NCBI GenBank assembly: GCA_961205875.1
Contig: OY540810.1
Location: 18,104,001 to 18,168,000, forward strand
From: Sialis fuliginosa
Taxonomy: Eukaryota; Arthropoda; Insecta; Megaloptera; Sialidae
Length of the DNA stretch: 64,000 nucleotides
Direction: 5' to 3'
The notes beneath the pieces are model-generated. The model saw only the letters and a program-made list of their open reading frames with translations. It was not told the origin of the DNA and did not search any database. A program made the position numbers and the translations under genes. Shown one piece after another: positions 229-63,940 of this stretch; the first letter of the stretch is position 1, and each line of letters begins with the position of its first letter.

Positions 229-674
229 CCTTAACATCTAATTACTAATCGGAAATTGAGAGTCTTAAATTCTAGATTTGATTTAATTTGTTGTAATTTG
301 AGTGAAATGATGCTTTTAGAATCAATTCGAATTAAATTATTTTAAAATCTTTCGAAATAGACTAGACAAAATAATTTAATTTGCTTGTAAAATCGAATTG
401 AGTCGAAAAGCATCATTTCAATAAAATTACATCAAATTAAGTCAAATCTAGACTTTTTGACTTAAAATTTCCGATTAGCGCCGAAACTTTTCGAATTGAT
501 TTAAAAATCTTGGTTCCGATAGACTGTTTGATACGAATCGAGACAATTATTATCAAATAAATACAAAATACAACGAATTAATACTAATCATGTCGATTTG
601 TATCTAATCTGTCTTGAGGTAGATTTAATATAAATTGTTTTTTTTGCATAATCGAATTGAGTCGAAATGTGTTG
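229..674 (+). repeat. Core element copy 1 (subfamily A1)
   Basis: This is a 446-bp non-hexameric sequence from CCTTAACATC to GAAATGTGTTG, one of 12 near-identical copies. Positions 246-477 form an imperfect inverted repeat: TAATCGGAAATT at the left pairs with AATTTCCGATTA at the right, with TCTAGATTTGA and GAAATGATGCTTTT matched inside. A second, weaker inverted repeat spans about 480-668, its best-paired part being GATACGAATCGA (530) with TCGATTTGTATC (593). AATCGAATTGAGTCGAAA occurs twice, near 391 and 650. Satellite polarity changes from CATAAA to TTTATG across the element. The right border contains a 5-base unit (TTTATGTTATG), shared with copies 3 and 6. It resembles a foldback or MITE-like sequence, but no target-site duplication or transposase is visible, so a transposon origin is unproven. 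Confidence 0.95.
246..477. repeat. Imperfect 232-bp inverted repeat inside the core (shown for copy 1)
   Basis: The arms are about 110 bp and meet near 361. Matched blocks, outside to inside, are TAATCGGAAATT, TCTAGATTTGA, TTAATTTG, TGTAATTT, GAAATGATGCTTTT, TCAATTCGA and AAATTAAATTATTTT, separated by short mismatched stretches and an insertion in one arm. The same structure lies about 17-248 bp from the left end of every core copy. It could extrude as a cruciform or fold as RNA; neither is shown by sequence alone. Confidence 0.9.
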
Positions 675-2251
675 TTTATGTTATGTTTATGTTTAATCTT
701 GCGATATTGTTTATGTTTATGATTAAGTTTATATTTAAGTTTATGTTTAAGCTTATGTTTTTGTTTATGTTTATGTTTATAATTAAGTTTATATTTAAGT
801 TTAAGTTTAAGCTTTTTTTTATGTTTTGATTTATGTTTATGTTTATGTTTATGTTTTGGTTTATTTTGATGTTTTGGTTTATGTTTATGTTTATGTTTTG
901 GTTTATGTTTATGTTTTGGTTTATTTTTATGTTTTGGTTTAAATTTATGTTTATGTTTTGGTTTATGATTATGTTTTTGTTTATGTTTATGTTTATAATT
1001 AAGTTTTTATTTAAGTTTAAAGTTAAGCTTTTTTTATGTTTTGATTTATGTTTATGTTTATGTTTATGTTTTGGTTAATGTTTATGTTTATGTTTTGGTT
1101 TATTTTTATGTTTTGGTTTATGTTTATGTTTATGTTTTGGTTTATGTTTATGTTTTGGTTTATTTTTATATTTTGGTTTAAATTTATGTTTATGTTATGG
1201 TTTATGTTTATGTTTTTGTTTATGTTTATGTTTATAATTAAGTTTATATTTAAGTTCAAGTTTAAGCTTTTTTTTATGTTTTGATTTATGTTTATGTTTA
1301 TGTTTTGGTTAATGTTTATGTTTATGTTTTGGTTTATTTTTATGTTTTGGTTTATGTTTATGTTTATGTTTTGGTTTATGTTTATGCTTATGATTATATT
1401 TATGTTTATGTTTATGATTAAGATTATGTTTATGTTTATGTTTATGTTTATGTTTATGTTTATGTTTATGTTTATGTTTATGTTTATGTTTATGTTTATG
1501 TTTATGTTTATGTTTATGTTTATGTTTATGTTTATGTTTATGTTTATGTTTATGTTTATGTTTATGTTTATGTTTATGTTTATGTTTATGTTTATGTTTA
1601 TGTTTATGTTTATGTTTATGTTTATGTTTATGTTTATGTTTATGTTTATGTTTATGTTTATGTTTATGTTTTCGTTTATGTTTATGGTTATGTTTATGTT
1701 TTGGTTTATGTTTATGTTTTGGTTTATTTTTATGTTTTGGTTTATGTTTATGTTTATGTTTTGGTTTATTTTTATGTTTTGGTTTATGTTTATGTTTTGG
1801 TTTATTTTTATGTTTTGGTTTATGTTTATGTTTATGTTTATGTTCAAGTTTATGTTTATATTTATGTTTATGTTTATGTTTATGTTTATGTTTATGTTTA
1901 TATTTATGTTTATGTCTATGTCTATGTTTATGTTAATATTAATGTTAATGTTTATGTTTATGTTTATGTTTATGTTTATGTTTATGTTTATGTTTATGTT
2001 TATATTTATGTTTTAGTTTATGTTTATGTTTTGGTTTATGTTTATGTTTTGGTTTATGTTTATGTTTATGTTTATATTTATGTTTATGTTTATGATTAAG
2101 ATTATGTTTATGATTAAGATTATGTTTATGTTTTTTGTTTCAGTTTATATTTATGTTTTGGTTTATGTTTATATTTATGTTTATGTTTATTTTTATGTTT
2201 ATGTTTATGTTTATGTTTATGTTTTTGTTTATGTTTATGTTTATGTTTATG
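675..2251 (+). repeat. Hexamer satellite, G-polarity arm (TTTATG on plus strand)
   Basis: The core border AATCTTGCGATATTG lies at 695-709. Cassettes of about 210-250 bp follow; they end in TTTAAGCTT plus a T run near 811, 1029 and 1267. A run of about 40 pure units lies at about 1425-1667. TTTTGG/TTTTTA-rich sequence, a TCTATG doublet and TTAATA/TTAATG units lie near 1915-1945, and ATTAAG ATTATG units near 2094-2130. The arm is mirrored at 8241-9913. Open frames here are two-residue repeats and are not genes. Confidence 0.95.
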
Positions 2252-2290
2252 TCATAAACATAAACCTAAACAAAAATATAAACAAAAACA
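2240..2290 (-). other. Polarity switch G to C, type I (no AGCTAAA)
   Basis: The plus strand changes from TTTATG to CATAAA at TTTATGTCATAAAC (2251/2252). On the C side it continues as CCTAAA CAAAAATATAAAC, which may be a diverged relative of the AGCTAAA element found at the other switches. The only other copy, in opposite orientation, is at 8241. Confidence 0.85.
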
Positions 2291-5391: not shown

Positions 5392-5837
5392 CCTTAACAT
5401 CTAATTACTAATCGGAAATTGAGAGTCTTAAATTCTAGATTTGATTTAATTTGTTGTAATTTGAGTGAAATGATGCTTTTAGAATCAATTCGAATTAAAT
5501 TATTTTAAAATCTTTCGAAATAGACTAGACAAAATAATTTAATTTGCTTGTAAAATCGAATTGAGTCGAAAAGCATCATTTCAATAAAATTACATCAAAT
5601 TAAGTCAAATCTAGACTTTTTGACTTAAAATTTCCGATTAGCGCCGAAACTTTTCGAATTGATTTAAAAATCTTGGTTCCGATAGACTGTTTGATACGAA
5701 TCGAGACAATTATTATCAAATAAATACAAAATACAACGAATTAATACTAATCATGTCGATTTGTATCTAATCTGTCTTGAGGTAGATTTAATATAAATTG
5801 TTTTTTTTGCATAATCGAATTGAGTCGAAATGTGTTG
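5392..5837 (+). repeat. Core element copy 2 (subfamily A2)
   Basis: The copy is 446 bp and carries the A-type bases TTATTTTAAAATC and GACAATTATT. Its right border is TTGTTTATGTTTATG with no 5-base unit, as in copies 7 and 8. It lies near the centre of the large inverted repeat formed around copies 1 and 3, and is the direct counterpart of copy 8 about 33.3 kb away. Confidence 0.95.
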
Positions 5838-8204: not shown

Positions 8205-8250
8205 TTTTGTTTATATTTTTGTTTAGGTTTATGTTTATGACATAAACATA
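8205..8250 (+). other. Polarity switch G to C, type I, inverted copy
   Basis: TTTATGACATAAAC at about 8240 is the reverse complement of the switch at 2252. Here the TATTTTTGTTTAGG sequence lies on the G side. AGCTAAA is absent. Confidence 0.85.
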
Positions 8251-9913
8251 AACATAAACATAAACAAAAACATAAACATAAACATAAACATAAACATAAA
8301 AATAAACATAAACATAAATATAAACATAAACCAAAACATAAATATAAACTGAAACAAAAAACATAAACATAATCTTAATCATAAACATAATCTTAATCAT
8401 AAACATAAACATAAATATAAACATAAACATAAACATAAACCAAAACATAAACATAAACCAAAACATAAACATAAACTAAAACATAAATATAAACATAAAC
8501 ATAAACATAAACATAAACATAAACATAAACATAAACATAAACATTAACATTAATATTAACATAAACATAGACATAGACATAAACATAAATATAAACATAA
8601 ACATAAACATAAACATAAACATAAACATAAACATAAATATAAACATAAACATAAACAGAGACATAAATATAAACATAAACATAAACATAAACATAAACAT
8701 AAACATAAACATAAATATAAACATAAACTTGAACATAAACATAAACATAAACATAAACCAAAACATAAAAATAAACCAAAACATAAACATAAACCAAAAC
8801 ATAAAAATAAACCAAAACATAAACATAAACATAAACCAAAACATAAAAATAAACCAAAACATAAACATAAACCAAAACATAAACATAACCATAAACATAA
8901 ACGAAAACATAAACATAAACATAAACATAAACATAAACATAAACATAAACATAAACATAAACATAAACATAAACATAAACATAAACATAAACATAAACAT
9001 AAACATAAACATAAACATAAACATAAACATAAACATAAACATAAACATAAACATAAACATAAACATAAACATAAACATAAACATAAACATAAACATAAAC
9101 ATAAACATAAACATAAACATAAACATAAACATAAACATAAACATAAACATAAACATAAACATAAACATAAACATAAACATAATCTTAATCATAAACATAA
9201 ACATAAATATAATCATAAGCATAAACATAAACCAAAACATAAACATAAACATAAACCAAAACATAAAAATAAACCAAAACATAAACATAAACATTAACCA
9301 AAACATAAACATAAACATAAATCAAAACATAAAAAAAAGCTTAAACTTGAACTTAAATATAAACTTAATTATAAACATAAACATAAACAAAAACATAAAC
9401 ATAAACCATAACATAAACATAAATTTAAACCAAAATATAAAAATAAACCAAAACATAAACATAAACCAAAACATAAACATAAACATAAACCAAAACATAA
9501 AAATAAACCAAAACATAAACATAAACATTAACCAAAACATAAACATAAACATAAACATAAATCAAAACATAAAAAAAGCTTAACTTTAAACTTAAATAAA
9601 AACTTAATTATAAACATAAACATAAACAAAAACATAATCATAAACCAAAACATAAACATAAATTTAAACCAAAGCATAAAAATAAACCAAAACATAAACA
9701 TAAACATAAACCAAAACATCAAAATAAACCAAAACATAAACATAAACATAAACATAAATCAAAACATAAAAAAAAGCTTAAACTTAAACTTAAATATAAA
9801 CTTAATTATAAACATAAACATAAACAAAAACATAAGCTTAAACATAAACTTAAATATAAACTTAATCATAAACATAAACAATATCGCAAGATTAAACATA
9901 AACATAACATAAA
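8241..9913 (-). repeat. Hexamer satellite, C-polarity arm
   Basis: This is the mirror image of 675-2251. It has the CATTAA/CATAGA doublets near 8540-8580, an extra CAGAGA unit at about 8655, a pure run of about 45 units (8905-9180), and inverted T-run cassettes near 9330, 9570 and 9770. It ends with the inverted AATCTTGCGATATTG border before core copy 3. It is slightly longer than its partner because of hexamer-number differences. Confidence 0.95.
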
Positions 9914-10359
9914 CAACACATTTCGACTCAATTCGATTATGCAAAAAAAACAATTTATATTAAATCTACCTCAAGACAGATTAGATACAAATCGACATGA
10001 TTAGTATTAATTCGTTGTATTTTGTATTTATTTGATAATAATTGTCTCGATTCGTATCAAACAGTATATCGGAACCAAGATTTTTAAATCAATTCGAAAA
10101 GTTTCGGCGCTAATCGGAAATTTTAAGTCAAAAAGTCTAGATTTGACTTAATTTGATGTAATTTTATTGAAATGATGCTTTTCGACTCAATTCGATTTTA
10201 CAAGCAAATTAAATTATTTTGTCTAGTCTATTTCGAAAGATTTTAAAATAATTTAATTCGAATTGATTCTAAAAGCATCATTTCACTCAAATTACAACAA
10301 ATTAAATCAAATCTAGAATTTAAGACTCTCAATTTCCGATTAGTAATTAGATGTTAAGG
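9914..10359 (-). repeat. Core element copy 3 (subfamily A1, minus strand)
   Basis: This is one of only two inverted cores. It is 446 bp with the A1 border (5-base unit) and the CCTAAA left border, as in copies 1 and 6. A private change lies at 10066: ACAGTATATC where the other copies read ACAGTCTATC. It still sits at a CATAAA-to-TTTATG transition, because reversing a core with both flanks preserves the polarity pattern. Confidence 0.95.
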
Positions 10360-11713
10360 ATTATGTTTATGTTTATGATTAAGATAATGTTTATGTTTTA
10401 GTTAATGTTTAGGTTTATGTTTATGTTTTGGTTTATGTTTATGTTTAGGTTTAAGTTTATGTTTTGGTTTATGTTTATGTTTTGGTTTATGCTTATGTTT
10501 TGGTTTATGTTTATGTTTATGTTTATGTTTATGTTTATGTTTATGTTTATGTTTATGTTTATGTTTATGTTTATGTTTATGTTTATGTTTATGTTTATGT
10601 TTATGTTTATGTTTATGTTTATGTTTATGTTTTGGTTTATGTTTATGTTTTGGTTTATGTTTATGTTTTGGTTTATGTTTATGTTTTAGTTTATGTTTAT
10701 GTTTATGTTTATGTTTATGTTTATGTTTATGTTTATGTTTATGTTTATGTTTAAGTTTATGTTTATGTTTATGTTTTGGTTTATGTTTATGTTTCGATTT
10801 ATGTTAATGTTTATGTTTTTGTTTATGTTTTGGTTTATGTTTTGGTTTATGTTTTGGTTTATGTTTTGGTTTATGTTTTGGTTTATGTTTTTGTTTATGT
10901 TTATATTTATGTTTATGATTAAGATTATGTTTATGTTTAAGTTTATGTTTTAGTTTATGTTTATGTTTTGGTTTATGTTTATGTTTATGTTTTGGTTTAT
11001 GTTTATGTTTTGGTTTATGTTTATGTTTATGTTTAAATTTATGTTTATGTTTATGATTAAGATTATGTTTATGTTTAAGTTTATGTTTATGTTTTGGTTT
11101 ATGTTTATGTTTTGGTTTATGTTAATTTTTATGTTTTGGTTAATTTTTATGTTTTGGTTTATCTTTATGTTTTGGTTTATGTTTATGTTTTGGTTTATGT
11201 TTGTGTTTATGATTATATTTATGTTTATGTTTATGATTAAGATTATGTTTATGTTTAAGTTTATGTTTTAGTTATGTTTATGTTTTGGTTTATGTTTATG
11301 TTTTGGTTTATGTTTATGTTTTGGTTTATGTTTATGTTTATGTTTTGGTTTATGTTTATGTTTATGTTTATGTTTTTGTTTATGTTTATGTTAATGTTTA
11401 TGTTTATGTTTATGTTTATGTTTATGTTTAAGTTTATGTTTATGTTTATGTTTTGGTTTATGTTTATGTTTATGTTTATGTTTATGTTTATGTTTATGTT
11501 TATGTTTATGTTTATGTTTATGTTTATGTTTATGTTTATGTTTATGTTTATGTTTATGTTTATGTTTATGTTTATGTTTATGTTTATGTTTATGTTTATG
11601 TTTATGTTTATGTTTATGTTTATGTTTATGTTTATGTTTGTTTATGGTTATGTGTATGTTTAAGTTAATGTTTATGTATATGTTTATGTTTATTATTATG
11701 TTTATGTTTATGT
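10360..11713 (+). repeat. Hexamer satellite, G-polarity arm
   Basis: This is the left-flank type sequence of a core in inverted orientation: TTTAGG/TTTAAG/TTTTGG variants, then cassettes ending GATTAAGATTATG TTTATG TTTAAG near 10920, 11060 and 11235, then about 29 pure units (11465-11638). It is mirrored by 20940-22180. Confidence 0.95.
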
Positions 11714-11748
11714 CATAAACATAAACTTTAGCTAAAATATAAACAAAC
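11638..11748 (-). other. AGCTAAA polarity-switch element (minus orientation)
   Basis: From left to right it has GTTTGTTTATGG, TTATGTGTATG, TTTAAGTTAATG, TTTATGTATATG, an ATTATTATG insertion, the hinge TTTATGTCATAAAC (about 11713), then CTTTAGCTAAAAT and ATAAACAAAC. It is the reverse complement of the elements at 36190 and 49492, which share the extra trinucleotide repeat. Confidence 0.9.
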
Positions 11749-14368: not shown

Positions 14369-14812
14369 CCTTAACATCTAATTACTAATCGGAAATTGAG
14401 AGTCTTAAATTCTAGATTTGATTTAATTTGTTGTAATTTGAGTGAAATGATGCTTTTAGAATCAATTCGAATTAAATTATTTTTAATTCTTTCGAAATAG
14501 ACTAGACAAAATAATTTAATTTGCTTGTAAAATCGAATTGAGTCGAAAAGCATCATTTCAATAAAATTACATCAAATTAAGTCAAATCTAGACTTTTTGA
14601 CTTAAAATTTCCGATTAGCGCCGAAACTTTTCGAATTGATTTAAAAATCTTGGTTCCGATAGACTGTTTGATACGAATCGAGACATTTATTATCAAATAA
14701 ATACAAAATACAACGAATTAACTAATCATGTCGATTTGTATCTAATCTGTCTTGAGGTAGATTTAATATAAATTGTTTTTTTTGCATAATCGAATTGAGT
14801 CGAAATGTGTTG
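14369..14812 (+). repeat. Core element copy 4 (subfamily B)
   Basis: The copy is 444 bp. A 2-bp deletion (GAATTAACTAATC near 14720) and a private TTTTTAATTCTTTCG distinguish it. Subfamily B features are TTATTTTTAAA-type sequence at the palindrome centre, GACATTTATT, and a right border of TTTATGATTATG. The base change opens a 61-codon minus-strand frame across the palindrome that is closed in subfamily A. That frame is not regarded as a gene. Confidence 0.95.
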
Positions 14813-16230
14813 TTTATGATTATGTTTATGTTTAATCTTGCGATATTGTTTATGTTTATGATTAAGTTTATATTTAAGTTTATGTTTAAGCTTATGTTTT
14901 TGTTTATGTTTATGTTTATAATTAAGTTTATATTTAAGTTTAAGTTTAAGCTTTTTTTTATGTTTTGATTTATGTTTATGTTTATGTTTATGTTTTAGTT
15001 TATGTTTATGTTTTGGTTTATGTTTATGTTTATGTTTATATTTATGTTTATGTTTATGATTAAGATTATGTTTATGTTTAAGTTTATGTTTTAGTTTATG
15101 TTTATGTTTTGGTTTATGTTTATGTTTTGGTTTATGTTTATGTTTTGGTTTATGTTTATGTTTATGTTTTGGTTTATGTTTATGTTTATGTTTTTGTTTA
15201 TGTTTATGTTAATGTTTATGTTTATGTTTATGTTTAAGTTTATGTTTATGTTTATGTTTTGGTTTATGTTTATGTTTATGTTTATGTTTATGTTTATGTT
15301 TATGTTATGTTTATGTTTATGTCTATGTTTATGTTTATGTTTATGTTTATGTTTATGTTTATGTTTATGTTTATGTTTATGTTTTGGTTTATGTTTATGT
15401 TTTGGTTTATGTTTATGTTTATGTTTATGTTTATGTCTATGTTTATGTTTATGGTTATGTTTATGTTTTGGTTTATGTTTATGTTTTGATTTATGTTTAT
15501 GTTTATGTATTGGTTAATGTTTATGTTTTGGTTTATGTTTTGGTTTATGTTTTTGTTTATGTTTTTGTTTATGTTTATATTTATGTTTATGTTTATGATT
15601 AGGATTATGTTTATGTTTAAGTTTACGTTTTAGTTTATGTTTATGTTTTGGTTTATGTTTATGTTTATGTTTTGGTTAATGTTTATGTTTATGTTTTGTT
15701 TTTATGTTTATGTTTATGTTTATGTTTATGTTTATGTTTATGTTTATATTTATGTTTATGTTTATGTTTATGTTTATGTTTATGTTTATGTTTATGTTTA
15801 TGTTTATGTTTATGTTTGTTTATGGTTATGTGTATGTTTAAGTTAATGTTTATGTATATGTTTATGTTTAAGTTTATGTTTATGTTTATGTTTTGGTTTA
15901 TGTTTATGTTTATGTTTATGTTTATGTTTATGTTTATGTTTATGTTTATGTTTATGTTTATGTTTATGTTTATGTTTATGTTTATGTTTATGTTTATGTT
16001 TATGTTTATGTTTATGTTTATGTTTATGTTTATGTTTATGTTTATGTTTATGTTTATGTTTATGTTTATGTTTATGTTTATGTTTATGTTTATGTTTATG
16101 TTTATGTTTATGTTTATGTTTATGTTTATGTTTATGTTTATGTTTATGTTTATGTTTATGTTTATGTTTATGTTTTGGTTTATGTTTATGTTTTTGTTTG
16201 TTTATATTTTAGCTAAAGTTTATGTTTATG
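14813..16230 (+). repeat. Hexamer satellite, G-polarity arm
   Basis: Core border and one T-run cassette, then ATTAAG cassettes. A 5-base unit lies at about 15302, TATTGG at 15508, an isolated half of the AGCTAAA element near 15797-15860, and about 46 pure units at 15896-16170. Confidence 0.95.
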
Positions 16231-16296
16231 ACATAAACATAAACATAAACATATACATAAACATTAACTTAAACATACACATAACCATAAACAAAC
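16196..16296 (+). other. AGCTAAA polarity-switch element (plus orientation)
   Basis: GTTTGTTTATATTTTAGC lies on the G side, the hinge TTTATGACATAAAC at about 16230, then CATATA, CATTAACTTAAAC, CATACACATAACC and ACAAAC on the C side. The ten bases TTTAGCTAAA are themselves a perfect palindrome. The element is the only non-pure sequence at the hinge. Confidence 0.92.
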
Positions 16297-17841: not shown

Positions 17842-18287
17842 CCTTAACATCTAATTACTAATCGGAAATTGAGAGTCTTAAATTCTAGATTTGATTTAAT
17901 TTGTTGTAATTTGAGTGAAATGATGCTTTTAGAATCAATTCGAATTAAATTATTTTTAAATCTTTCGAAATAGACTAGACAAAATAATTTAATTTGCTTG
18001 TAAAATCGAATTGAGTCGAAAAGCATCATTTCAATAAAATTACATCAAATTAAGTCAAATCTAGACTTTTTGACTTAAAATTTCCGATTAGCGCCGAAAC
18101 TTTTCGAATTGATTTAAAAATCTTGGTTCCGATAGACTGTTTGATACGAATCGAGACATTTATTATCAAATAAATACAAAATACAACGAATTAATACTAA
18201 TCATGTCGATTTGTATCTAATCTGTCTTGAGGTAGATTTAATATAAATTGTTTTTTTTGCATAATCGAATTGAGTCGAAATGTGTTG
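17842..18287 (+). repeat. Core element copy 5 (subfamily B)
   Basis: A full 446-bp copy with the B-type centre (TTTTTAAATC), GACATTTATT and the TTTATGATTATG border. It lacks the 2-bp deletion of copy 4. Same strand as copy 4, about 3.47 kb downstream. Confidence 0.95.
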
Positions 18288-22180: not shown

Positions 22181-22626
22181 CCTTAACATCTAATTACTAA
22201 TCGGAAATTGAGAGTCTTAAATTCTAGATTTGATTTAATTTGTTGTAATTTGAGTGAAATGATGCTTTTAGAATCAATTCGAATTAAATTATTTTAAAAT
22301 CTTTCGAAATAGACTAGACAAAATAATTTAATTTGCTTGTAAAATCGAATTGAGTCGAAAAGCATCATTTCAATAAAATTACATCAAATTAAGTCAAATC
22401 TAGACTTTTTGACTTAAAATTTCCGATTAGCGCCGAAACTTTTCGAATTGATTTAAAAATCCTGGTTCCGATAGACTGTTTGATACGAATCGAGACAATT
22501 ATTATCAAATAAATACAAAATACAACGAATTAATACTAATCATGGCGATTTGTATCTAATCTGTCTTGAGGTAGATTTAATATAAATTGTTTTTTTTGCA
22601 TAATCGAATTGAGTCGAAATGTGTTG
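22181..22626 (+). repeat. Core element copy 6 (subfamily A1)
   Basis: A 446-bp copy with the A1 right border (5-base unit) and CCTAAA left border. It is the inverted partner of copy 3. Private changes are C at 22462 (ATCCTGG for ATCTTGG) and G at 22544 (CATGGCGA for CATGTCGA). Confidence 0.95.
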
Positions 22627-24270: not shown

Positions 24271-24306
24271 TCATAAACATAAACTTTAGCTAAAATATAA
24301 ACAAAC
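24208..24306 (-). other. AGCTAAA polarity-switch element (minus orientation)
   Basis: This is the reverse complement of the 16196-type element, without the ATTATTATG insertion seen at 11638. The hinge is at about 24270/24271. It is the inverted partner of the element at 54511. Confidence 0.92.
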
Positions 24307-40037: not shown

Positions 40038-40052
40038 AATCTTGCGATATTG
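40038..40052 (+). repeat. Orphan core-border motif AATCTTGCGATATTG
   Basis: There is no core within reach. It is followed by TTTATGTTTTTGATTAAG, as at the other orphan copies. Confidence 0.92.
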
Positions 40053-42431: not shown

Positions 42432-42446
42432 AATCTTGCGATATTG
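42432..42446 (+). repeat. Orphan core-border motif AATCTTGCGATATTG
   Basis: Second orphan of the first 4.09-kb duplicate; counterpart of 46524. Confidence 0.92.
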
Positions 42447-44123: not shown

Positions 44124-44138
44124 AATCTTGCGATATTG
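44124..44138 (+). repeat. Orphan core-border motif AATCTTGCGATATTG
   Basis: Counterpart of 40038 in the second 4.09-kb duplicate. Confidence 0.92.
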
Positions 44139-46523
44139 TTTATGTTTTTGATTAAGTTTATATTTAAGTTTATGTTTAAGCTTATGTTTTTGTTTATGTT
44201 TATGTTTATAATTAAGTTTATATTTAAGTTTATGTTTAAACTTTTTTTTATGTTTTGATTTATGTTTATGTTTATGTTTATGTTTTGGTTTATTTTGATG
44301 TTTTGGTTTATGTTTATGTTTATGTTTTGGTTTATGTTTATGTTTTGGTTTATTTTTATGTTTTGGTTTAAATTTATGTTTATGTTTTGGTTTATGATTA
44401 TGTTTTTGTTTATGTTTATGTTTATAATTAAGTTTTTATTTAAGTTTAAAGTTAAGCTTTTTTTTATGTTTTGATTTATGTTTATATTTATGTTTTGGTT
44501 TATTTTTATGTTTTGGTTTATGTTTAAGTTTATGTTTTGGTTTATGTTTATGTTTTGGTTTATTTTTATGTTTTGGTTTAAATTTATGTTTATGTTATGG
44601 TTTATGTTTATGTTTTTGTTTATGTTTATGTTTATAATTAAGTTTATATTTAAGTTCAAGTTTAAGCTTTTTTTTATGTTTTGATTTATGTTTATGTTTA
44701 TGTTTTGGTTAATGTTTATGTTTATGTTTTGGTTTATTTTTATGTTTTGGTTTATGTTTATGTTTATGTTTTGGTTTATGTTTATGTTTTGGTTTATTTT
44801 TATGTTTTGGTTTATGTTTATATTTATGTTTTGGTTTATGTTTATGTTTTGGTTTATTTTTATGTTCTGGTTTATGTTTATGTTTATGTTTTGGTTTATT
44901 TTTATGTTTTGGTTTATGTTTATGTTTTGGTTTATTTTTATGTTTTGGTTTATGTTTATGTTTATGTTTATGTTTATGTTCAAGTTTATGTTTATATTTA
45001 TGTTTATGTTTATGTTTATGTTTATGTTTATGTTTATGTTTATGTTTATATTTATGTCTCTGTTTATGTTTATGTTTATGTTTATGTTTATGTTTATGTT
45101 TATGTTTATGTTTATGTTTATGTTTATGTTTATATTTATGTTTATGTCTATGTCTATGTTTATGTTAATGTTAATGTTTATGTTTATGTTTATGTTTATG
45201 TTTATGTTTATGTTTATGGTAATGTTTATGTTTCCGTTTATGTTTATGTTTATGTTTATGTTTATGTTTATGTTTATGTTTATGTTTATGTTTATGTTTA
45301 TGTTTATGTTTATGTTTATGTTTATGTTTATGTTTATGTTTATGTTTATGTTTATGTTTATGTTTATGTTTATGTTTATGTTTATGTCTATGTTTATGTT
45401 TATGTTTATGTTTATGTTTATGTTTATGTTTATGTTTATGTTTATATTTATGTTTATGTCTATGTCTATGTTTATGTTAATGTTAATGTTTATGTTTATG
45501 TTTATGTTTATGTTTATGTTTATGTTTATGTTTATGTTTATGTTTATGTTTATGTTTATATTTATGTCTATGTTTATGTTTATGTTTATGTTTATGTTTA
45601 TGTTTATGTTTATGTTTATGTTTATGTTTATATTTATGTTTATGTCTATGTCTATGTCTATGTTAATGTTAATGTTTATGTTTATGTTTATGTTTATGTT
45701 TATGTTTATGTTTATGTTTATGTTTATGTTTATGTTTATGTTTATGTTTATGTTTATGTTTATGTTTATGTTTATGTTTATGTTTATGTTTATGTTTATG
45801 TTTATGTTTATGTTTATGTTTATGTTTATGTTTATGTTTATGTTTATGTTTATGTTTATGTTTATGTTTATGTTTATGTTTATGTTTATGTTTATGTTTA
45901 TGTTTATGTTTATGTTTATGTTTATGTTTATGTTTATGTTTATGTTTATGTTTATGTTTTGGTTTATATTTATGTTTTGGTTTATGTTTATGTTTTTGTT
46001 TATGTTATGGTTTATGTTTATGTTTTGGTTTATGTTTATGTTTTTGTTTATGTTTATGTTTATAATTAAGTTTATATTTAAGTTCAAGTTTAAGCTTTTT
46101 TTTATGTTTTGATTTATGTTTATGTTTATGTTTTGGTTAATGTTTATGTTTATGTTTTGGTTTATTTTTATGTTTTAGTTTATGTTTATGTTTATGTTTT
46201 GGTTTATGTTTATGTTTTGGTTTATTTTTATGTTTTGGTTTATGTTTATATTTATGTTTTGGTTTATGTTTATGTTTTGGTTTATTTTTATGTTTTGGTT
46301 TATGTTTATGTTTATGTTTTGGTTTATTTTTATGTTTTGGTTTATGTTTATGTTTTGGTTTATTTTTATGTTTTGGTTTATGTTTATGTTTTGGTTTATG
46401 TTTATGTTTATGTTTTGGTTTATGTTTATGTTTATGTTTATGTTTATGTTTATGTTTATGTTTATGTTTATGTTAATGTTTAAGTTTATGTTTATATTTA
46501 TGTTTATGTTTATGTTTATGTTT

Positions 46524-46538
46524 AATCTTGCGATATTG
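46524..46538 (+). repeat. Orphan core-border motif AATCTTGCGATATTG
   Basis: Counterpart of 42432 in the second 4.09-kb duplicate. Confidence 0.92.
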
Positions 46539-47959
46539 TTTATGTTTTTGATTAAGTTTATATTTAAGTTTATGTTTAAGCTTATGTTTTTGTTTATGTT
46601 TATGTTTATAATTAAGTTTATATTTAAGTTTAAGTTTAAGCTTTTTTTTATGTTTTGATTTATGTTTATGTTTATGTTTATGTTTTGGTTTATTTTGATG
46701 TTTTGGTTTATGTTTATGTTTATGTTTTGGTTTATTTTTATGTTTTGGTTTAAATTTATGTTTATGTTTTGGTTTATGATTATGTTTTTGTTTATGTTTA
46801 TGTTTATAATTAAGTTTTTATTTAAGTATAAAGTTAAGCTTTTTTTTATGTTTTGATTTATGTTTATATTTATGTTTTGGTTTATTTTTATGTTTTGGTT
46901 TATGTTTAAGTTTATGTTTTGGTTTATGTTTATGTTTTGGTTTATTTTTATGTTTTGGTTTAAATTTATGTTTATGTTATGGTTTATGTTTATGTTTTTG
47001 TTTATGTTTATGTTTATAATTAAGTTTATATTTAAGTTCAAGTTTAAGCTTTTTTTTATGTTTTGATTTATGTTTATGTTTATGTTTTGGTTAATGTTTA
47101 TGTTTATGTTTTGGTTTATTTTTATGTTTTGGTTTATGTTTATGTTTATGTTTTGTTTTATGTTTATGTTTTGGTTTATTTTTATGTTTTGGTTTATGTT
47201 TATATTTATGTTTTGGTTTATGTTTATGTTTTGGTTTATTTTTATGTTCTGGTTTATGTTTATGTTTATGTTTTGGTTTATTTTTATGTTTTGGTTTATG
47301 TTTATGTTTTGGTTTATTTTTATGTTTTGGTTTATGTTTATGTTTATGTTTATGTTCAAGTTTATGTTTATATTTATGTTTATGTTTATGTTTATGTTTA
47401 TGTTTATGTTTATGTTTATATTTATGTCTCTGTTTATGTTTATGTTTATGTTTATGTTTATGTTTATGTTTATGTTTATGTTTATGTTTATGTTTATGTT
47501 TATATTTATGTTTATGTCTATGTCTATGTTTATGTTAATGTTAATGTTTATGTTTATGTTTATGTTTATGTTTATGGTAATGTTTATGTTTCCGTTTATG
47601 TTTATGTTTATGTTTATGTTTATGTTTATGTTTATGTTTATGTTTATGTTTATGTTTATGTTTATGTTTATGTTTATGTTTATGTTTATGTTTATGTTTA
47701 TGTTTATGTTTATGTTTATGTTTATGTTTATGTTTATATTTATGTCTATGTTTATGTTTATGTTTATGTTTATGTTTATGTTTATGTTTATGTTTATGTT
47801 TATGTTTATATTTATGTTTATGTCTATGTCTATGTTTATGTTAATGTTAATGTTTATGTTTATGTTTATGTTTATGTTTATGTTTATGTTTATGTTTATG
47901 TTTATGTTTATGTTTATGTTTATGTTTATGTTTATATTTATGTTTATGTTTATGTTTAT

Positions 47960-50185
47960 GTTTATGTTTAAGTTTATGTTTATGTTTATGTTTATGTTTA
48001 TGTTTATGTTTATGTTTATGTTTATGTTTATGTTTATGTTTATGTTTATGTTTATGTTTATGTTTATGTTTATGTTTATGTTTATGTTTATGTTTATGTT
48101 TATGTTTATGTTTATGTTTATGTTTATGTTTATGTCTATGTTTATGTTTATGGTTATGTTTATGTTTTGGTTTATGTTTATGTTTTGATTTATGTTTATG
48201 TTTATGTATTGGTTAATGTTTATGTTTTGGTTTATGTTTTGGTTTATGTTTTTGTTTATGTTTTTGTTTATGTTTATATTTATGTTTATGTTTATGATTA
48301 AGATTATGTTTATGTTTTAGTTTATGTTTATGTTTTGGTTTATGTTTATGTTTATGTTTTGGTTTATGTTTATGTTTATGTTTTGTTTTTATGTTTATGT
48401 TTATGTTTATGTTTATATTTATGTTTATGTTTATGTTTATGTTTATGTTTATGTTTATGTTTATGTTTATGTTTATGTTTATGTTTATGTTTATGTTTAT
48501 GTTTATGTTTTAGATTATGTTTATGTTTTGGTTTATGTTTATGCTTATGATTAAGATTATGTTTATGTTTTGGATTATGTTTATGTTTTGGTTTATGTTT
48601 ATTTTTACGTTTATATTTATGTTTATGTTTATGATTAAGATTATGTTTATGATTAAGATTATGTTTATGTTTTATGTTTTAGTTTATATTTATGTTTTGG
48701 TTTATGTTTATGTTTATGTTTTGGTTTATGTTTATGTTTATGTTTTGGTTTATGTTTATGTTTATGTTTATGTTTATGTTTATGTTTATGTTTATGTTTA
48801 TGTTTATGTTTATGTTTATGTTTATGTTTATGTTTATGTTTATGTTTATGTTTATGTTTTAGATTATGTTTATGTTTTGGTTTATGTTTATGTTTATGAT
48901 TAAGATTATGTTTATGTTTTGGATTATGTTTATGTTTTGGTTTATGTTTATGTTTATGTTTATATTTATGTTTATGTTTATGTTTATGTTTATGTTTATG
49001 TTTATGTTTATGTTTATGTTTATGTTTATGTTTATGTTTATGTTTATGTTTATGTTTATGTTTATGTTTATGTTTATGTTTATGTTTATGTTTATGTTTA
49101 TGTTTATGTTTATGTTTATGTTTATGTTTATGTTTATGTTTATGTTTATGTTTATGTTTATGTTTATGTTTATGTTTATGTTTATGTTTATGTTTATGTT
49201 TATGTTTATGTTTATGTTTATGTTTATGTTTATGTTTATGTTTATGTTTATGTTTATATTTATTTTTATGTCTATGTCTATGTTTATGTTAATGTTAATG
49301 TTTATGTTTATGTTTATGTTTATGTTTATGTTTATGTTTATGTTTATGTTTATGTTTATGTTTATGTTTATTTTTATGTTTATGTTTATGTTTATGTTTA
49401 TGTTTATGTTTATGTTTATGTTTAAGTTTAAGTTTAAGTTTATGTTTTAGTTTATGTTTATGTTTATGTTTTGGTTTATGTTTATGTTTTTGTTTGTTTA
49501 TATTTTAGCTAAAGTTTATGTTTATGACATAAACATAAACATAATAATAAACATAAACATATACATAAACATTAACTTAAACATACACATAACCATAAAC
49601 AAACAAAAACATAAACATAAACATAAACATAAATATAAACATAAACATAAACATAAACATAAACATAAACATAAACATAAACATAAACATAAACATAAAC
49701 ATAAATATAATCATAAGCATAAACATAAACCAAAACATAAACAAAAACTAAAACATAATCTTAAACATAAACATAATCTTAATCATAAACATAAACATAA
49801 ATATAAACATAAACATAAACATAAACATAAACATAAACCAAAACATAAACTTAAACCAAAACATAAACATTAACATAAACCAAAACATTAACATAAACTA
49901 AAACATAAACTTAACCATAAACATAATCCTTATCATTAACATAAACATAAATATAAACATTAACATAAACATAAACCAAAACATAAACCAAAGCATAAAC
50001 ATTAACCAAAACATAAACATAAACATAAATCAAAACATAAACATTAACCAAAACATAAACCAAAACATAAACATTAACCAAAACATAAACATAAACATAA
50101 ACATAAACATAAACATAAACATAAACATAAACATAAACATAAACATAAACCAAAACATAAACATAAACATAAACTTAAACATAAA
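47960..50185. repeat. Dispersed direct duplicate of 34600-37020 (spans a switch)
   Basis: Collinear at an offset of 13,266 bp on the G side, 13,302 at the switch, and 13,182 on the C side, where about 110 bp near 36440-36550 are missing from this copy (junction near 49735). The AATAATAA switch subtype is present in both copies. Confidence 0.9.
49492..49604 (+). other. AGCTAAA polarity-switch element (plus, AATAATAA subtype)
   Basis: Hinge at about 49527. Its sequence matches the 36190 element, including the trinucleotide insertion and the ACAAACAAAAAC end. Confidence 0.92.
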
Positions 50186-52733: not shown

Positions 52734-53179
52734 CCTTAACATCTAATTACTAATCGGAAATTGAGAGTCTTAAATTCTAGATTTGATTTAATTTGATGTA
52801 ATTTGAGTGAAATGATGCTTTTAGAATCAATTCGAATTAAATTATTTTAAAATCTTTCGAAATAGACTAGACAAAATAATTTAATTTGCTTGTAAAATCG
52901 AATTGAGTCGAAAAGCATCATTTCAATAAAATTACATCAAATTAAGTCAAATCTAGACTTTTTGACTTAAAATTTCCGATTAGCGCCGAAACTTTTCGAA
53001 TTGATTTAAAAATCTTGGTTCCGATAGACTGTTTGATACGAATCGAGACAATTATTATCAAATAAATACAAAATACAACGAATTAATACTAATCATGTCG
53101 ATTTGTATCTAATCTGTCTTGAGGTAGATTTAATATAAATTGTTTTTTTTGCATAATCGAATTGAGTCGAAATGTGTTG
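52734..53179 (+). repeat. Core element copy 9 (subfamily A3)
   Basis: A 446-bp A-type copy with a border found nowhere else (TTGTTTATGTTAATG). At 52796 it reads TTTGATGTAATTT where all others read TTTGTTGTAATTT. The changed base makes the left arm of the palindrome match the right arm at this position. It is the inverted partner of copy 7. Confidence 0.95.
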
Positions 53180-54545
53180 TTTATGTTAATGTTTATGTTT
53201 AATCTTGCGATATTGTTTATGTTTATGATTAAGTTTATATTTAAGTTTATGTTTAAGCTTATGTTTTTGTTTATGTTTATGTTTATAATTAAGTTTATAT
53301 TTAAGTTTAAGTTTAAGCTTTTTTTTATGTTTTGATTTATGTTTATGTTTATGTTTATGTTTATGTTTTGGTTTATTTTGATGTTTTGGTTTATGTTTAT
53401 GTTTATGTTTTGGTTTATGTTTATGTTTTGGTTTATTTTTATGTTTTGGTTTAAATTTATGTTTATGTTTTGGTTTATGTTTATGTTTTGGTTTATGTTT
53501 ATGTTTATGTTTATGTTCAAGTTTATGTTTATATTTATGTTTATGTTTATGTTTATGTTTATGTTTATGTTTATGTTTATGTTTATGTTTATGTTTATGT
53601 TTTGGTTTATTTTTATGTTTTGGTTTATGTTTATGTTTATGTTTTGGTTTATGTTTATGTTTTGGTTTATTTTTATGTTTTGGTTTATGTTTATATTTAT
53701 GTTTTGGTTTATGTTTATGTTTTGGTTTATTTTTATGTTTTGGTTTATGTTTATGTTTATGTTTTGGTTTATTTTTATGTTTTGGTTTATGTTTATGTTT
53801 TGGTTTATTTTTATGTTTTGGTTTATGTTTATGTTTTGGTTTATGTTTATGTTTATGTTTTGGTTTATGTTTATGTTTATGTTTATATTTATGTTTATGT
53901 TTATGTTAATGTTTAAGTTTATGTTTATATTTATGTTTATGTTTATGTTTATGTTTATGTTTATGTTTATGTTTATGTTTATGTTTATGTTTATGTTTAT
54001 GTTTATGTTTTGGTTTATGTTTATGTTTTGGTTGATGTTTATGTTTATGTTTATGTTATGGTTTATGTTTATGTTTTGGTTTATTTTTATGTTTTTGTTT
54101 ATGTTTAGGTTAATGTTTTTGTTTATGTTTATGTTTATGTTTATGTTTGTGTTTATGGTTTGGTTTATGTTTATGTTTATGTTTATGTTTATGTTTATGT
54201 TTATGTTTATGTTTATGTTTATGTTTATGTTTATGTTTATGTTTATGTTTATATTTATGTTTATGTCTATGTCTATGTCTATGTTTATGTTAATGTTTAT
54301 GTTTATGTTTATGTTTATGTTTATGTTTATGTTTATGTTTATGTTTATGTTTATGTTTATGTTTATGTTTATGTTTATGTTTATGTTTATGTTTATGTTT
54401 ATGTTTATGTTTATGTTTATGTTTATGTTTATGTTTATGTTTATGTTTAAGTTTAAGTTTATGTTTTAGTTTATGTTTATGTTTATGTTTTGGTTTATGT
54501 TTATGTTTTTGTTTGTTTATATTTTAGCTAAAGTTTATGTTTATG
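53180..54545 (+). repeat. Hexamer satellite, G-polarity arm
   Basis: Core border and one T-run cassette, then TTTTGG/TTTTTA cassettes (53600-53870), TTGATG at about 54032, TTTAGGTTAATG at about 54104, a TTTGTGTTTATGG interruption at 54146, TCTATG triplet units (54265-54283) and about 25 pure units before the switch. Confidence 0.95.
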
Positions 54546-54611
54546 ACATAAACATAAACATAAACATATACATAAACATTAACTTAAACATACACATAAC
54601 CATAAACAAAC
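54511..54611 (+). other. AGCTAAA polarity-switch element (plus orientation)
   Basis: Same form as 16196 and 19701, with the hinge at about 54545. It is the inverted partner of the element at 24208. Confidence 0.92.
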
Positions 54612-56952: not shown

Positions 56953-57398
56953 CCTTAACATCTAATTACTAATCGGAAATTGAGAGTCTTAAATTCTAGA
57001 TTTGATTTAATTTGTTGTAATTTGAGTGAAATGATGCTTTTAGAATCAATTCGAATTAAATTATTTTTAAATCTTTCGAAATAGACTAGACAAAATAATT
57101 TAATTTGCTTGTAAAATCGAATTGAGTCGAAAAGCATCATTTCAATAAAATTACATCAAATTAAGTCAAATCTAGACTTTTTGACTTAAAATTTCCGATT
57201 AACGCCGAAACTTTTCGAATTGATTTAAAAATCTTGGTTCCGATAGACTGTTTGATACGAATCGAGACATTTATTATCAAATAAATACAAAATACAACGA
57301 ATTAATACTAATCATGTCGATTTGTATCTAATCTGTCTTGAGGTAGATTTAATATAAATTGTTTTTTTTGCATAATCGAATTGAGTCGAAATGTGTTG
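56953..57398 (+). repeat. Core element copy 10 (subfamily B)
   Basis: A 446-bp B-type copy. Private A at 57202 changes GATTAGCGCC to GATTAACGCC, in the only GC-rich stretch of the core. Confidence 0.95.
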
Positions 57399-58510
57399 TT
57401 TATGATTATGTTTATGTTTAATCTTGCGATATTGTTTATGTTTATGATTAAGTTTATATTTAAGTTTATGTTTAAGCTTATGTTTTTGTTTATGTTTATG
57501 TTTATAATTAAGTTTATATTTAAGTTTAAGTTTAAGCTTTTTTTTATGTTTTGATTTATGTTTATGTTTATGTTTATGTTTTAGTTTATGTTTATGTTTT
57601 GGTTTATGTTTATGTTTATGTTTATATTTATGTTTATGTTTATGATTAAGATTATGTTTATGTTTAAGTTTATGTTTTAGTTTATGTTTATGTTTTGGTT
57701 TATGTTTATGTTTTGGTTTATGTTTATGTTTTGGTTTATGTTTATGTTTATGTTTTGGTTTATGTTTATGTTTATGTTTTTGTTTATGTTTATGTTAATG
57801 TTTATGTTTATGTTTATGTTTAAGTTTATGTTTATGTTTATGTTTTGGTTTATGTTTATGTTTATGTTTATGTTTATGTTTATGTTTATGTTATGTTTAT
57901 GTTTATGTCTATGTTTATGTTTATGTTTATGTTTATGTTTATGTTTATGTTTATGTTTATGTTTATGTTTATGTTTATGTTTATGTTTATGTTTTGGTTT
58001 ATGTTTATGTTTTGGTTTATGTTTATGTTTTGGTTTATTTTTATGTTTTGGTTTATGTTTATATTTATGTTTTGGTTTATGTTTATGTTTTGGTTTATTT
58101 TTATGTTTTGGTTTATGTTTATGTTTATGTTTTGGTTTATTTTTATGTTTTGGTTTATGTTTATGTTTTGGTTTATTTTTATGTTTTGGTTTATGTTTAT
58201 GTTTTGGTTTATGTTTATGTTTATGTTTTGGTTTATGTTTATGTTTATGTTTATATTTATGTTTATGTTTATGTTAATGTTTAAGTTTATGTTTATATTT
58301 ATGTTTATGTTTATGTTTATGTTTATGTTTATGTTTATGTTTATGTTTATGTTTATGTTTATGTTTATGTTTATGTTTTGTTTATGTTTATGTTTATGTT
58401 TATGTTTATGTTTATGTTTATGTTTATGTTTATGTTTATGTTTATGTTTATGTTTTGGTTTATGTTTATGTTTTTGTTTGTTTATATTTTAGCTAAAGTT
58501 TATGTTTATG
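57399..58510 (+). repeat. Hexamer satellite, G-polarity arm (hybrid)
   Basis: B-type border, T-run cassette, ATTAAG cassette and 5-base unit (57891). It then switches to core-9-type TTTTGG cassettes and ends with a TTTTG-shortened unit at about 58376, a short pure run and the switch. Confidence 0.94.
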
Positions 58511-58576
58511 ACATAAACATAAACATAAACATATACATAAACATTAACTTAAACATACACTTAACCATAAACAAAC
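58476..58576 (+). other. AGCTAAA polarity-switch element (plus orientation)
   Basis: Hinge at about 58510. One private change on the C side: CATACACTTAACC where the others read CATACACATAACC. Confidence 0.92.
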
Positions 58577-60192: not shown

Positions 60193-60638
60193 CCTTAACA
60201 TCTAATTACTAATCGGAAATTGAGAGTCTTAAATTCTAGATTTGATTTAATTTGTTGTAATTTGAGTGAAATGATGCTTTTAGAATCAATTCGAATTAAA
60301 TTATTTTTAAATCTTTCGAAATAGACTAGACAAAATAATTTAATTTGCTTGTAAAATCGAATTGAGTCGAAAAGCATCATTTCAATAAAATTACATCAAA
60401 TTAAGTCAAATCTAGACTTTTTGACTTAAAATTTCCGATTAGCGCCGAAACTTTTCGAATTGATTTAAAAATCTTGGTTCCGATAGACTGTTTGATACGA
60501 ATCGAGACATTTATTATCAAATAAATACAAAATACAACGAATTAATACTAATCATGTCGATTTGTATCTAATCTGTCTTGAGGTAGATTTAATATAAATT
60601 GTTTTTTTTGCATAATCGAATTGAGTCGAAATGTGTTG
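60193..60638 (+). repeat. Core element copy 11 (subfamily B)
   Basis: A 446-bp B-type copy with no private change noticed. It retains GATTAGCGCC, so the change in copy 10 is recent or local. Confidence 0.95.
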
Positions 60639-62062
60639 TTTATGATTATGTTTATGTTTAATCTTGCGATATTGTTTATGTTTATGATTAAGTTTATATT
60701 TAAGTTTATGTTTAAGCTTATGTTTTTGTTTATGTTTATGTTTATAATTAAGTTTATATTTAAGTTTAAGTTTAAGCTTTTTTTTATGTTTTGATTTATG
60801 TTTATGTTTATGTTTATGTTTTAGTTTATGTTTATGTTTTGGTTTATGTTTATGTTTATGTTTATATTTATGTTTATGTTTATGATTAAGATTATGTTTA
60901 TGTTTAAGTTTATGTTTTAGTTTATGTTTATGTTTTGGTTTATGTTTATGTTTTGGTTTATGTTTATGTTTTGGTTTATGTTTATGTTTATGTTTTGGTT
61001 TATGTTTATGTTTATGTTTTTGTTTATGTTTATGTTAATGTTTATGTTTATGTTTATGTTTAAGTTTATGTTTATGTTTATGTTTTGGTTTATGTTTATG
61101 TTTATGTTTATGTTTATGTTTATGTTATGTTTATGTTTATGTTTATGTCTATGTTTATGTTTATGTTTATGTTTATGTTTATGTTTATGTTTATGTTTAT
61201 GTTTATGTTTTGGTTTATGTTTATGTTTTGGTTTATGTTTATGTTTATGTTTATGTTTATGTCTATGTTTATGTTTATGGTTATGTTTATGTTTTGGTTT
61301 ATGTTTATGTTTTGATTTATGTTTATGTTTATGTATTGGTTAATGTTTATGTTTTGGTTTATGTTTTGGTTTATGTTTTTGTTTATGTTTTTGTTTATGT
61401 TTATATTTATGTTTATGTTTATGATTAGGATTATGTTTATGTTTAAGTTTACGTTTTAGTTTATGTTTATGTTTTGGTTTATGTTTATGTTTATGTTTTG
61501 GTTTATGTTTATGTTTATGTTTTGTTTTTATGTTTATGTTTATGTTTATGTTTATGTTTATATTTATGTTTATGTTTATGTTTATGTTTATGTTTATGTT
61601 TATGTTTATGTTTATGTTTATGTTTATGTTTATGTTTATGTTTATGTTTATGTTTATGTTTATGTTTATGTTTATGTTTGTTTATGGTTATGTGTATGTT
61701 TAAGTTAATGTTTATGTATATGTTTATGTTTAAGTTTATGTTTATGTTTATGTTTTGGTTTATGTTTATGTTTATGTTTATGTTTATGTTTATGTTTATG
61801 TTTATGTTTATGTTTATGTTTATGTTTATGTTTATGTTTATGTTTATGTTTATGTTTATGTTTATGTTTATGTTTATGTTTATGTTTATGTTTATGTTTA
61901 TGTTTATGTTTATGTTTATGTTTATGTTTATGTTTATGTTTATGTTTATGTTTATGTTTATGTTTATGTTTATGTTTATGTTTATGTTTATGTTTATGTT
62001 TATGTTTTGGTTTATGTTTATGTTTTTGTTTGTTTATATTTTAGCTAAAGTTTATGTTTATG
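60639..62062 (+). repeat. Hexamer satellite, G-polarity arm
   Basis: B-type arm with the 5-base unit at about 61125, TATTGG at 61334, GATTAGGATTATG at about 61424 (also present near 15598), a half-element at 61678-61725 and about 41 pure units (61758-62005). Confidence 0.95.
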
Positions 62063-62128
62063 ACATAAACATAAACATAAACATATACATAAACATTAAC
62101 TTAAACATACACATAACCATAAACAAAC
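62028..62128 (+). other. AGCTAAA polarity-switch element (plus orientation)
   Basis: Standard form with the hinge at about 62062; as in units B1, B2 and B3, it lies near the middle of the unit. Confidence 0.92.
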
Positions 62129-63494
62129 ATAAACATAAACATAAACATAAACATAAACATAAACATAAACATAAACATAAACATAAACATAAACATAAAC
62201 ATAAACATAAACATAAACATAAACATAAACATAAACATAAACATAAACATAAACATAAACATAAACATAAACATAAACATAAACATAAACATAAACATAA
62301 ACATAAACATAAACATAAACATAAACATAAACATAAACATAAACATAAACATAAACATAAACATAAACATAAACATAAACATAAACCAAAACATAAACAT
62401 AAACATAAACTTAAACATAAACATATACATAAACATTAACTTAAACATACACATAACCATAAACAAACATAAACATAAACATAAACATAAATATAAACAT
62501 AAACATAAACATAAACATAAACATAAACATAAACATAAACATAAACATAAACATAAAAACAAAACATAAACATAAACATAAACCAAAACATAAACATAAA
62601 CATAAACCAAAACATAAACATAAACTAAAACGTAAACATAAACATAATCTTAATCATAAACATAAACATAAATATAAACATAAACAAAAACATAAACAAA
62701 AACATAAACCAAAACATAAACCAAAACATAAACATAAACATAAACTTAAACATAAACATAAACATAAACATAAACATTAACATAAACATAAACAAAAACA
62801 TAAACATAAACATAAACCAAAACATAAACATAAACATAAACCAAAACATAAACATAAACCAAAACATAAACATAAACCAAAACATAAACATAAACTAAAA
62901 CATAAACTTAAACATAAACATAATCTTAATCATAAACATAAACATAAATATAAACATAAACATAAACATAAACATAAACCAAAACATAAACATAAACTAA
63001 AACATAAACATAAACCAAAACATAAGCATAAACTAAAACATAAACTTAAACATAAACATAAACTAAAACATAAATCAAAACATAAACCAAAACATAAACA
63101 AAAACATAAACATTAACCAAAACATAAACATTAACATAAATCAAAACATAAACATAAACCAAAACATAAACATAAACATAAACTTAAACATAAACATAAA
63201 CATAAACATAAACATAAACATAAACATAAACTAAAACATCAACATAAACCAAAACATAAACATAAACCAAAACATAAACATAAACCAAAACATAAACATA
63301 AACATAAACATAAACATAAACATAAACATAAACATAAACATAAACATAAACCAAAACATAAGCATAAACCAAAACATAAACATAAACCAAAACATAAACT
63401 TAAACCTAAACATAAACATAAACCAAAACATAAACATAAACCAAAACATTAACTAAAACATAAACATTATCTTAATCATAAACATAAACATAAT
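62063..63494 (-). repeat. Hexamer satellite, C-polarity arm
   Basis: About 43 pure units, a half-element at about 62415-62466, then shortened cassettes. CTAAAACATCAAC (63231) and the usual CCAAAA-rich left border precede core 12. The 5-base unit of sister arms falls in the deleted part. Confidence 0.95.
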
Positions 63495-63940
63495 CCTTAA
63501 CATCTAATTACTAATCGGAAATTGAGAGTCTTAAATTCTAGATTTGATTTAATTTGTTGTAATTTGAGTGAAATGATGCTTTTAGAATCAATTCGAATTA
63601 AATTATTTTTAAATCTTTCGAAATAGACTAGACAAAATAATTTAATTTGCTTGTAAAATCGAATTGAGTCGAAAAGCATCATTTCAATAAAATTACATCA
63701 AATTAAGTCAAATCTAGACTTTTTGACTTAAAATTTCCGATTAGCGCCGAAACTTTTCGAATTGATTTAAAAATCTTGGTTCCGATAGACTGTTTGATAC
63801 GAATCGAGACATTTATTATCAAATAAATACAAAATACAACGAATTAATACTAATCATGTCGATTTGTATCTAATCTGTCTTGAGGTAGATTTAATATAAA
63901 TTGTTTTTTTTGCATAATCGAATTGAGTCGAAATGTGTTG
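63495..63940 (+). repeat. Core element copy 12 (subfamily B)
   Basis: A 446-bp B-type copy, third in the tandem series after copies 10 and 11. The series evidently continues beyond the window. Confidence 0.95.

Follow-up and report, generated by a model that had tools for sequence, protein, structure and literature searches.

Tandem mirror-image foldback units as the probable source of strand polarity in a satellite of Sialis fuliginosa

The satellite array described here lies in a 64,000-nucleotide stretch of the genome of the megalopteran insect Sialis fuliginosa (the window; C2:18104001-18168000, contig OY540810.1), which is assembled as 392 Mb in 20 contigs. Conserved cores are flanked by hexamer arms, and one strand switches from C-rich to G-rich at each core and back to C-rich at a junction element, J, between the cores. 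The array is very probably a satellite of tandem mirror-image foldback units in which polarity reflects inherited geometry together with homology-driven rearrangement, and no function is needed to account for it. The repeat unit would comprise a (CATAAA)n arm, a palindromic core and a (TTTATG)n arm. Head-to-tail units would then meet at J, giving a C-to-G switch at the core and a G-to-C switch at J.

The 444-bp core is present in 12 copies in the window with 98.9-100% identity, 10 on the plus strand and 2 on the minus strand (9916-10359 and 25802-26246). The cores are separated by degenerate hexamer tracts, with CATAAA to the left of every core, TTTATG to the right, and one turn-back between successive cores. 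The copies are listed below in window coordinates.

229 to 672, plus strand: core 1, 444 bp, read as a truncated foldback element, with a C-rich arm on the left and a G-rich arm on the right
5392 to 5835, plus strand: core 2
9916 to 10359, minus strand: core 3, inverted together with its arms
14369 to 14810, plus strand: core 4
17842 to 18285, plus strand: core 5
22181 to 22624, plus strand: core 6
25802 to 26246, minus strand: core 7, inverted together with its arms
38677 to 39120, plus strand: core 8
52734 to 53177, plus strand: core 9
56953 to 57396, plus strand: core 10
60193 to 60636, plus strand: core 11
63495 to 63938, plus strand: core 12

Two-state segmentation of the window, with the cores masked, placed a C-to-G switch at each core and identified 11 G-to-C switches, one per interval. 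This confirmed the arrangement reported in a preliminary description of this DNA, which had also noted correctly that inverted cores obey the same rule. In any two-state string opposite switches must alternate, and if every C-to-G switch is a core there is exactly one reverse switch per interval. The non-trivial content is which sequence occupies each switch, namely the core at C-to-G whatever its orientation and J at G-to-C.

Away from the switches, GC skew in 500-bp steps was mostly 0.8 to 1.0 in size and alternated in sign. The skew comes from the hexamer itself, which has almost no G on one strand; strand-biased mutation in ordinary sequence, as in replication-type skew, was not what was seen. 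The proposal that the satellite records a strand-specific process gains no support from this, because the skew is the repeat's own composition rather than mutational drift and is not readable as a mutational record of replication.

The hexamer arms of opposite polarity in the window measure 1.1 to 10.4 kb. Two G-rich arms (26247-36224 and 39121-49526) are expanded to ∼10 kb, and the remaining 20 between-core arms are 1.1-3.2 kb long. Autocorrelation of the expanded arms showed no single long period standing out.

The motif AGCTAAA has 18 matches in the window (0.35 expected), which make up nine palindromes, TTTAGCTAAA. These palindromes occur at nine of the 11 G-to-C switches, and the remaining two switches (2252 and 8239) carry a diverged copy of J. 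The switches are given below, each with ∼30 bp on either side.

2222 to 2283, minus strand: G-to-C switch 1 (2252/2253), diverged J, inverted relative to both neighbouring cores
8210 to 8270, plus strand: G-to-C switch 2 (8239/8240), diverged J
11684 to 11744, minus strand: G-to-C switch 3 (11713/11714), J with TTTAGCTAAA at 11727-11736
16200 to 16260, plus strand: G-to-C switch 4 (16230/16231), J with TTTAGCTAAA
19705 to 19765, plus strand: G-to-C switch 5 (19735/19736), J
24241 to 24301, minus strand: G-to-C switch 6 (24271/24272), J, inverted
36194 to 36254, plus strand: G-to-C switch 7 (36224/36225), J
49496 to 49556, plus strand: G-to-C switch 8 (49526/49527), J
54515 to 54575, plus strand: G-to-C switch 9 (54545/54546), J
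58480 to 58540, plus strand: G-to-C switch 10 (58510/58511), J
62032 to 62092, plus strand: G-to-C switch 11 (62062/62063), J

A wider test of the rule covered 274 kb of C2, window included, with polarity assigned by segmentation. Here a core was present at all 57 C-to-G switches, and 57 of the 58 cores had a C-rich arm on the left and a G-rich arm on the right irrespective of core orientation. The sole exception, at the left edge of the array (C2:18030757-18031060), is a truncated core with C-rich sequence on both sides. When all C2 cores with sequence in hand were counted (n = 71; 58 in the 274 kb, 8 elsewhere and 5 at 18.58-18.60 Mb), 70 obeyed the rule. The hexamer arms in the 274 kb are mostly about 0.7 to 11 kb long. 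A related outer core end, of a form absent from C2, was found joined directly to CATAAA, the correct polarity, at 305 places, and the 100 of these among the matches listed were all on C4. The same core end with TTTATG, the wrong polarity, within 12 bases was found at 0 places by exact pattern. The strict rule of the preliminary description thus holds in the window; beyond it the rule is very strong and not absolute, being broken by one truncated core of 71 and by two coreless switches.

J is recognisable at 55 of the 57 G-to-C switches in the 274 kb, in either orientation (alignment score of at least 74 of 100), and the exact palindrome TTTAGCTAAA is found at 30 of the 57. A junction word from C2 matched 247 places, some of the 3-mismatch matches being to arms and not to J; the 100 among the matches listed were all on C2. 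In the part of the C7 array that was read the junction sequence differs from the AGCTAAA J. The association of AGCTAAA with the reverse switches, as first described, therefore stands at 9 of the 11 window switches and does not extend to the two diverged copies or to the C7 junction; to judge from these sequences, it is probably not universal. A lone J with short arms and no core lies at C2:18021869-18022178, ∼8 kb outside the array.

Two further observations concern the C2 arrays. In the parts read of C2:18578001-18602000 there are five cores, all inverted and all without the first 32 bases (core 33-444), which still obey the rule; J is diverged there, and long (TTCATG)n runs occur within the G-rich arms. 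Stretches of ordinary composition, perhaps insertions, break C-rich arms at C2:18034258-18036504, 18043590-18044066 and 18173271-18176076, leaving the polarity unchanged.

The likely source of the core is indicated by a relative on C7. It consists of a centre enclosed first by two inner arms and then by two outer ends, with a CATAAA arm beyond the left outer end and a TTTATG arm beyond the right one. The inner arms are complementary at 269 of 282 positions (95.4%), and the outer ends are reverse complements across the 35 bases compared. The CATAAA arm is short and was read by eye, the segmentation having left it unlabelled. This relative suggests as the source a foldback element, close to symmetrical, that was flanked by CATAAA at one end and by TTTATG at the other. 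It has the long inverted arms around a short middle that characterise foldback elements, and variable numbers of short tandem repeats are found in the arms. The C2 core corresponds to the centre and right arm of the C7 relative, with 88% identity, and the outer left part is gone; its centre is still a 78% inverted repeat, and the single strand folds 11 standard deviations below (more stably than) shuffled sequences. In two neighbouring C7 cores the truncation is on the opposite side, with the left outer end retained, and these also have C-rich sequence to the left of the core and G-rich sequence to the right. From sequence comparison, the window core is best read as a one-sided truncation of such a foldback element, amplified in tandem. 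The ancestor would have been the symmetrical form, and tandem amplification would have proceeded via unequal exchange or rolling circles.

The preliminary description had raised the possibility that the cores are initiation sites. On this hypothesis the cores would be start sites of bidirectional replication or transcription and J elements the sites of convergence, with polarity kept by selection on a strand-specific process. Near-invariant polarity (70 of 71 C2 cores, and 305:0 for the related core end) and high core conservation in the window (98.9-100%) are both in keeping with this. Such identity is, however, ordinary for a young homogenised array, and the skew is that of the hexamer, with no mutational bias. 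Moreover, cores of either orientation and with differing truncations sit alike on the switch, coreless switches exist, and the portion of the C7 array that was read has a junction sequence other than J. The symmetrical foldback relative accounts for a switch at the core without any process occurring there. We consider the start-site explanation very unlikely. A search for cores inside satellite of a single polarity, suggested at the outset as a check on it, returned one truncated core of 71 on C2 and no wrong joins against 305 right ones. Inherited geometry would lead to the same outcome, which is therefore no argument for initiation sites.

The arms record how the units have been rearranged. 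Words of 36 bases taken from the arms of cores 3 and 7 recur, in inverted form, in the opposite-side arms of forward cores. When the 200 bp beside each core were oriented with the core, the left arm was nearer the left-arm reference in 57 of 58 cores (the reference itself counted) and for the right arm 46 of the 58 lay nearer the right-arm reference, 11 went the other way and 1 was tied. From 18104229 onwards all 36 cores fit for both arms, 4 inverted cores included, and in the window all 12 fit for both. At C2:18102185-18104229, the right end of which is the first 229 bases of the window, the array changes from an all-inverted block of 22 cores to a mainly forward block. Right arms in the inverted left block depart further from the reference, and J there is mostly of the AGCTAAG form.

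Cores and J elements flip independently of each other. The 274 kb contain 108 pairs of core and J neighbours, of which 18 are oppositely oriented; this count leaves out the two weakest J calls (18099665 and 18228864), the J at 18022074 and core-core neighbours. If both weak calls are included there are 114 neighbours, and orientation changes at 21 of them. The arm type expected beside the core was found in all 18 discordant pairs, and in 13 of the 18 the arm turns along its length into the inverted opposite arm (bins read by eye). The change of type in these 13 mosaic arms sits within the arm, and so tracts of equal polarity have been joined. One chimeric arm in the window serves as an example.

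22625 to 24271, plus strand: arm of right-arm type by core 6 and of inverted left-arm type towards the inverted J at switch 6, with TTTATG polarity throughout (genome 18126181 / 18128271)

The inversions would be the result of recombination, or of template switching, involving hexamer arms in inverted orientation. Since inversions of this kind join like with like, the orientation of a core or J may change and the polarity rule cannot. Simulated inversions, run until at least 19 orientation changes had accumulated (300 runs), left a mean of 9.3 coreless C-to-G switches and a minimum of 2 when they were blind to polarity, and 0 when they joined like to like. The observed number in the 274 kb is 0.

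These results also bear on the possibility that the pattern was made by repeated blunt inverted duplication with no symmetry in the founder. Right-arm words flank the J at 2252 on either side, which is what inverted duplication would give, and the two coreless switches and two switches without J could have the same origin. Against this, most neighbouring units have the same orientation and left and right arms are unlike, and the simulation indicates that many coreless switches would be left. Blunt duplication is accordingly judged highly doubtful. The alternative in the preliminary description, inverted duplication without function, came close to the evidence; a better fit is given by tandem copying of a mirror-image unit combined with inversions between its inverted arms.

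Several observations weigh against foldback units rearranged like to like. Units of the same orientation also share inverted words between arms (the left arm of core 10 with the right arm of core 8, for example), and the left and right arm sets overlap, with 994 30-base words common to both. All 12 non-fitting right arms lie in the left block, where right arms fail to distinguish the sides. Five of the 18 discordant arms show the near-core type only, four of these adjoining the diverged J form, and several of the 13 mosaic arms switch type more than once. Only about 5-6 inversions were judged to be independent, several discordant pairs resembling copies of one event, and the simulation is thus supportive and not decisive. 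Outside the 274 kb, the C-to-G switches at C2:18583637 and C7:2089391 have no core, and two G-to-C switches within it (18099665 and 18228864) score 62 or less and have no recognisable J; it follows that some joins were not like to like. The patterns behind the 305:0 comparison were exact and unlike in form, the right-polarity one having fixed spacing, so that diverged or distant wrong joins would be missed. A 200-N run, either an assembly gap or a masked stretch, interrupts the left inner arm of the C7 relative. No target-site duplication, transposase or isolated single insertion has come to light (no search aimed at these was completed), so that the label "transposon" is one given on structural grounds.

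Palindromes are hard to assemble, and the N run lies in the C7 palindrome, as might be expected if the inverted order were an assembly artefact of palindromic reads. The arms nevertheless vary from one unit to the next, and the mosaics among them are specific. Furthermore, a variant absent from C2 shows the right-polarity join hundreds of times over, and the C7 cores obey the rule too. An artefact is extremely improbable.

The distribution of the arrays was examined with a 28-base core word. Allowing up to 3 mismatches, this was found at 97 places, 96 of them on C2 (92 exact and 4 with one mismatch, spanning 18.03-18.57 Mb) and 1 on C7 (three mismatches). Relatives with other variants, among the matches listed, are on C4 (33.62-34.13 Mb), C6 (3.42-3.89 Mb) and C7 (2.08-2.26 Mb) and at one place on C5; one search for core relatives listed the best 100 of 659 places. 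The array places among the matches listed therefore form one stretch each on C2 (18.03-18.60 Mb), C4, C6 and C7, plus the one C5 place. The large clusters, together with a parallel in Tribolium (PMC13081366), make it plausible that these arrays are a (peri)centromeric satellite, an assignment that we make with less confidence.

Such a location would suit a model in which the macro-dyad symmetry is itself selected, the kilobase hairpins or cruciforms of opposed arms specifying or folding (peri)centromeric chromatin and non-alternating arrays being weeded out. The single stretch per contig among the listed places, the strong core hairpin and the similar macro-dyad satellites of Tribolium (PMC13081366) are consistent with selection. 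A foldback founder, however, yields symmetry without it, and the distribution over chromosomes was drawn from the best 100 places per listing. We regard selected symmetry as unlikely. More speculatively, and with a rather low probability, the foldback element could be the unit from which chromosome-specific (peri)centromeric arrays are built; recombination between its arms would keep the macro-dyad symmetry, and the centromere would use that symmetry and not the sequence. Cores and junctions could then flip freely and the potential to form kilobase hairpins would never be lost.

Other features of the assembly and window were noted in passing. Contigs C2, C3 and C12 begin with TTAGG telomere-like repeats, and a 15.6-kb contig was judged by eye to carry mitochondrial reading frames. 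Both observations fit an insect genome. The first 600 bases of a 25.6-kb contig (C19) look bacterial, with a sensor-kinase-like reading by eye, and could derive from a symbiont or contaminant. The window gave no Rfam match at the gathering score, no tRNA and no tmRNA.

The structure of the C7 relative can be compared with known foldback elements. In Drosophila, the elements FB and Galileo have a middle part enclosed by long inverted arms that are made up of short tandem repeats. The likeness of the Sialis element to these is structural only, and no superfamily is assigned to it. Galileo arm repeats are mentioned in PMC4079207, which describes Tetris of Drosophila virilis, a foldback transposon with an associated satellite. 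Like the Sialis element, Tetris is a non-coding foldback element with tandem repeats of variable number in its inverted arms, and it fed a satellite (PMC4079207). The two differ in that the arm repeats of Tetris, of ∼220 bp, became the satellite (PMC4079207), whereas in Sialis the arm repeats are of 6 bp and the whole mirror-image unit is repeated with its core. Copies of Tetris have target duplications of 8-10 bp, and the Tetris-related element DAIBAM has been found at inversion breakpoints (PMC4079207). In the titles and abstract openings searched, with limited coverage of subscription journals, no description of a CATAAA/TTTATG foldback satellite was found.

The closest likeness in overall architecture is to the putative (peri)centromeric satellites of Tribolium madens, T. 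freemani and T. castaneum, which have opposed kilobase subarrays and highly conserved inversion sites (PMC13081366). The Sialis array likewise has opposed kilobase subarrays, and its inversion sites are conserved, a core being present at each of the 57 C-to-G switches of the 274 kb and J at 55 of the 57 G-to-C switches. In Tribolium it is arrays of monomers, which trace back to a 110-bp sequence, that change orientation, mostly into two subarrays per array (PMC13081366); the Sialis units are of ∼2-14 kb, each with two opposed switches and hexamer arms, and a symmetrical relative of the core is extant. Ectopic recombination has been proposed for the TmSat2 inversion (PMC13081366). Complex units regularly spaced by variable microsatellite tracts, as in the Sialis array, are also found in TmSat4 with (AC)n and in Penaeus vannamei, but the opposed microsatellite polarity on the two sides that is seen in Sialis is not mentioned in the available part of that source (PMC13081366).

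Macro-dyad symmetries in the (peri)centromeric satellites of insects have been proposed to be functional, partly on the basis of the conservation of inversion sites (PMC13081366). Copying of a mirror-image element followed by homology-driven rearrangement offers a route to strict symmetry and conserved inversion sites without selection, and this provides a null model that claims of functional macro-dyad symmetry would have to beat. The present case combines the Tetris and Tribolium precedents, in that the satellite monomer is an entire foldback unit with arms built of hexamers, and a symmetrical relative and the derived arrays are found in one genome.

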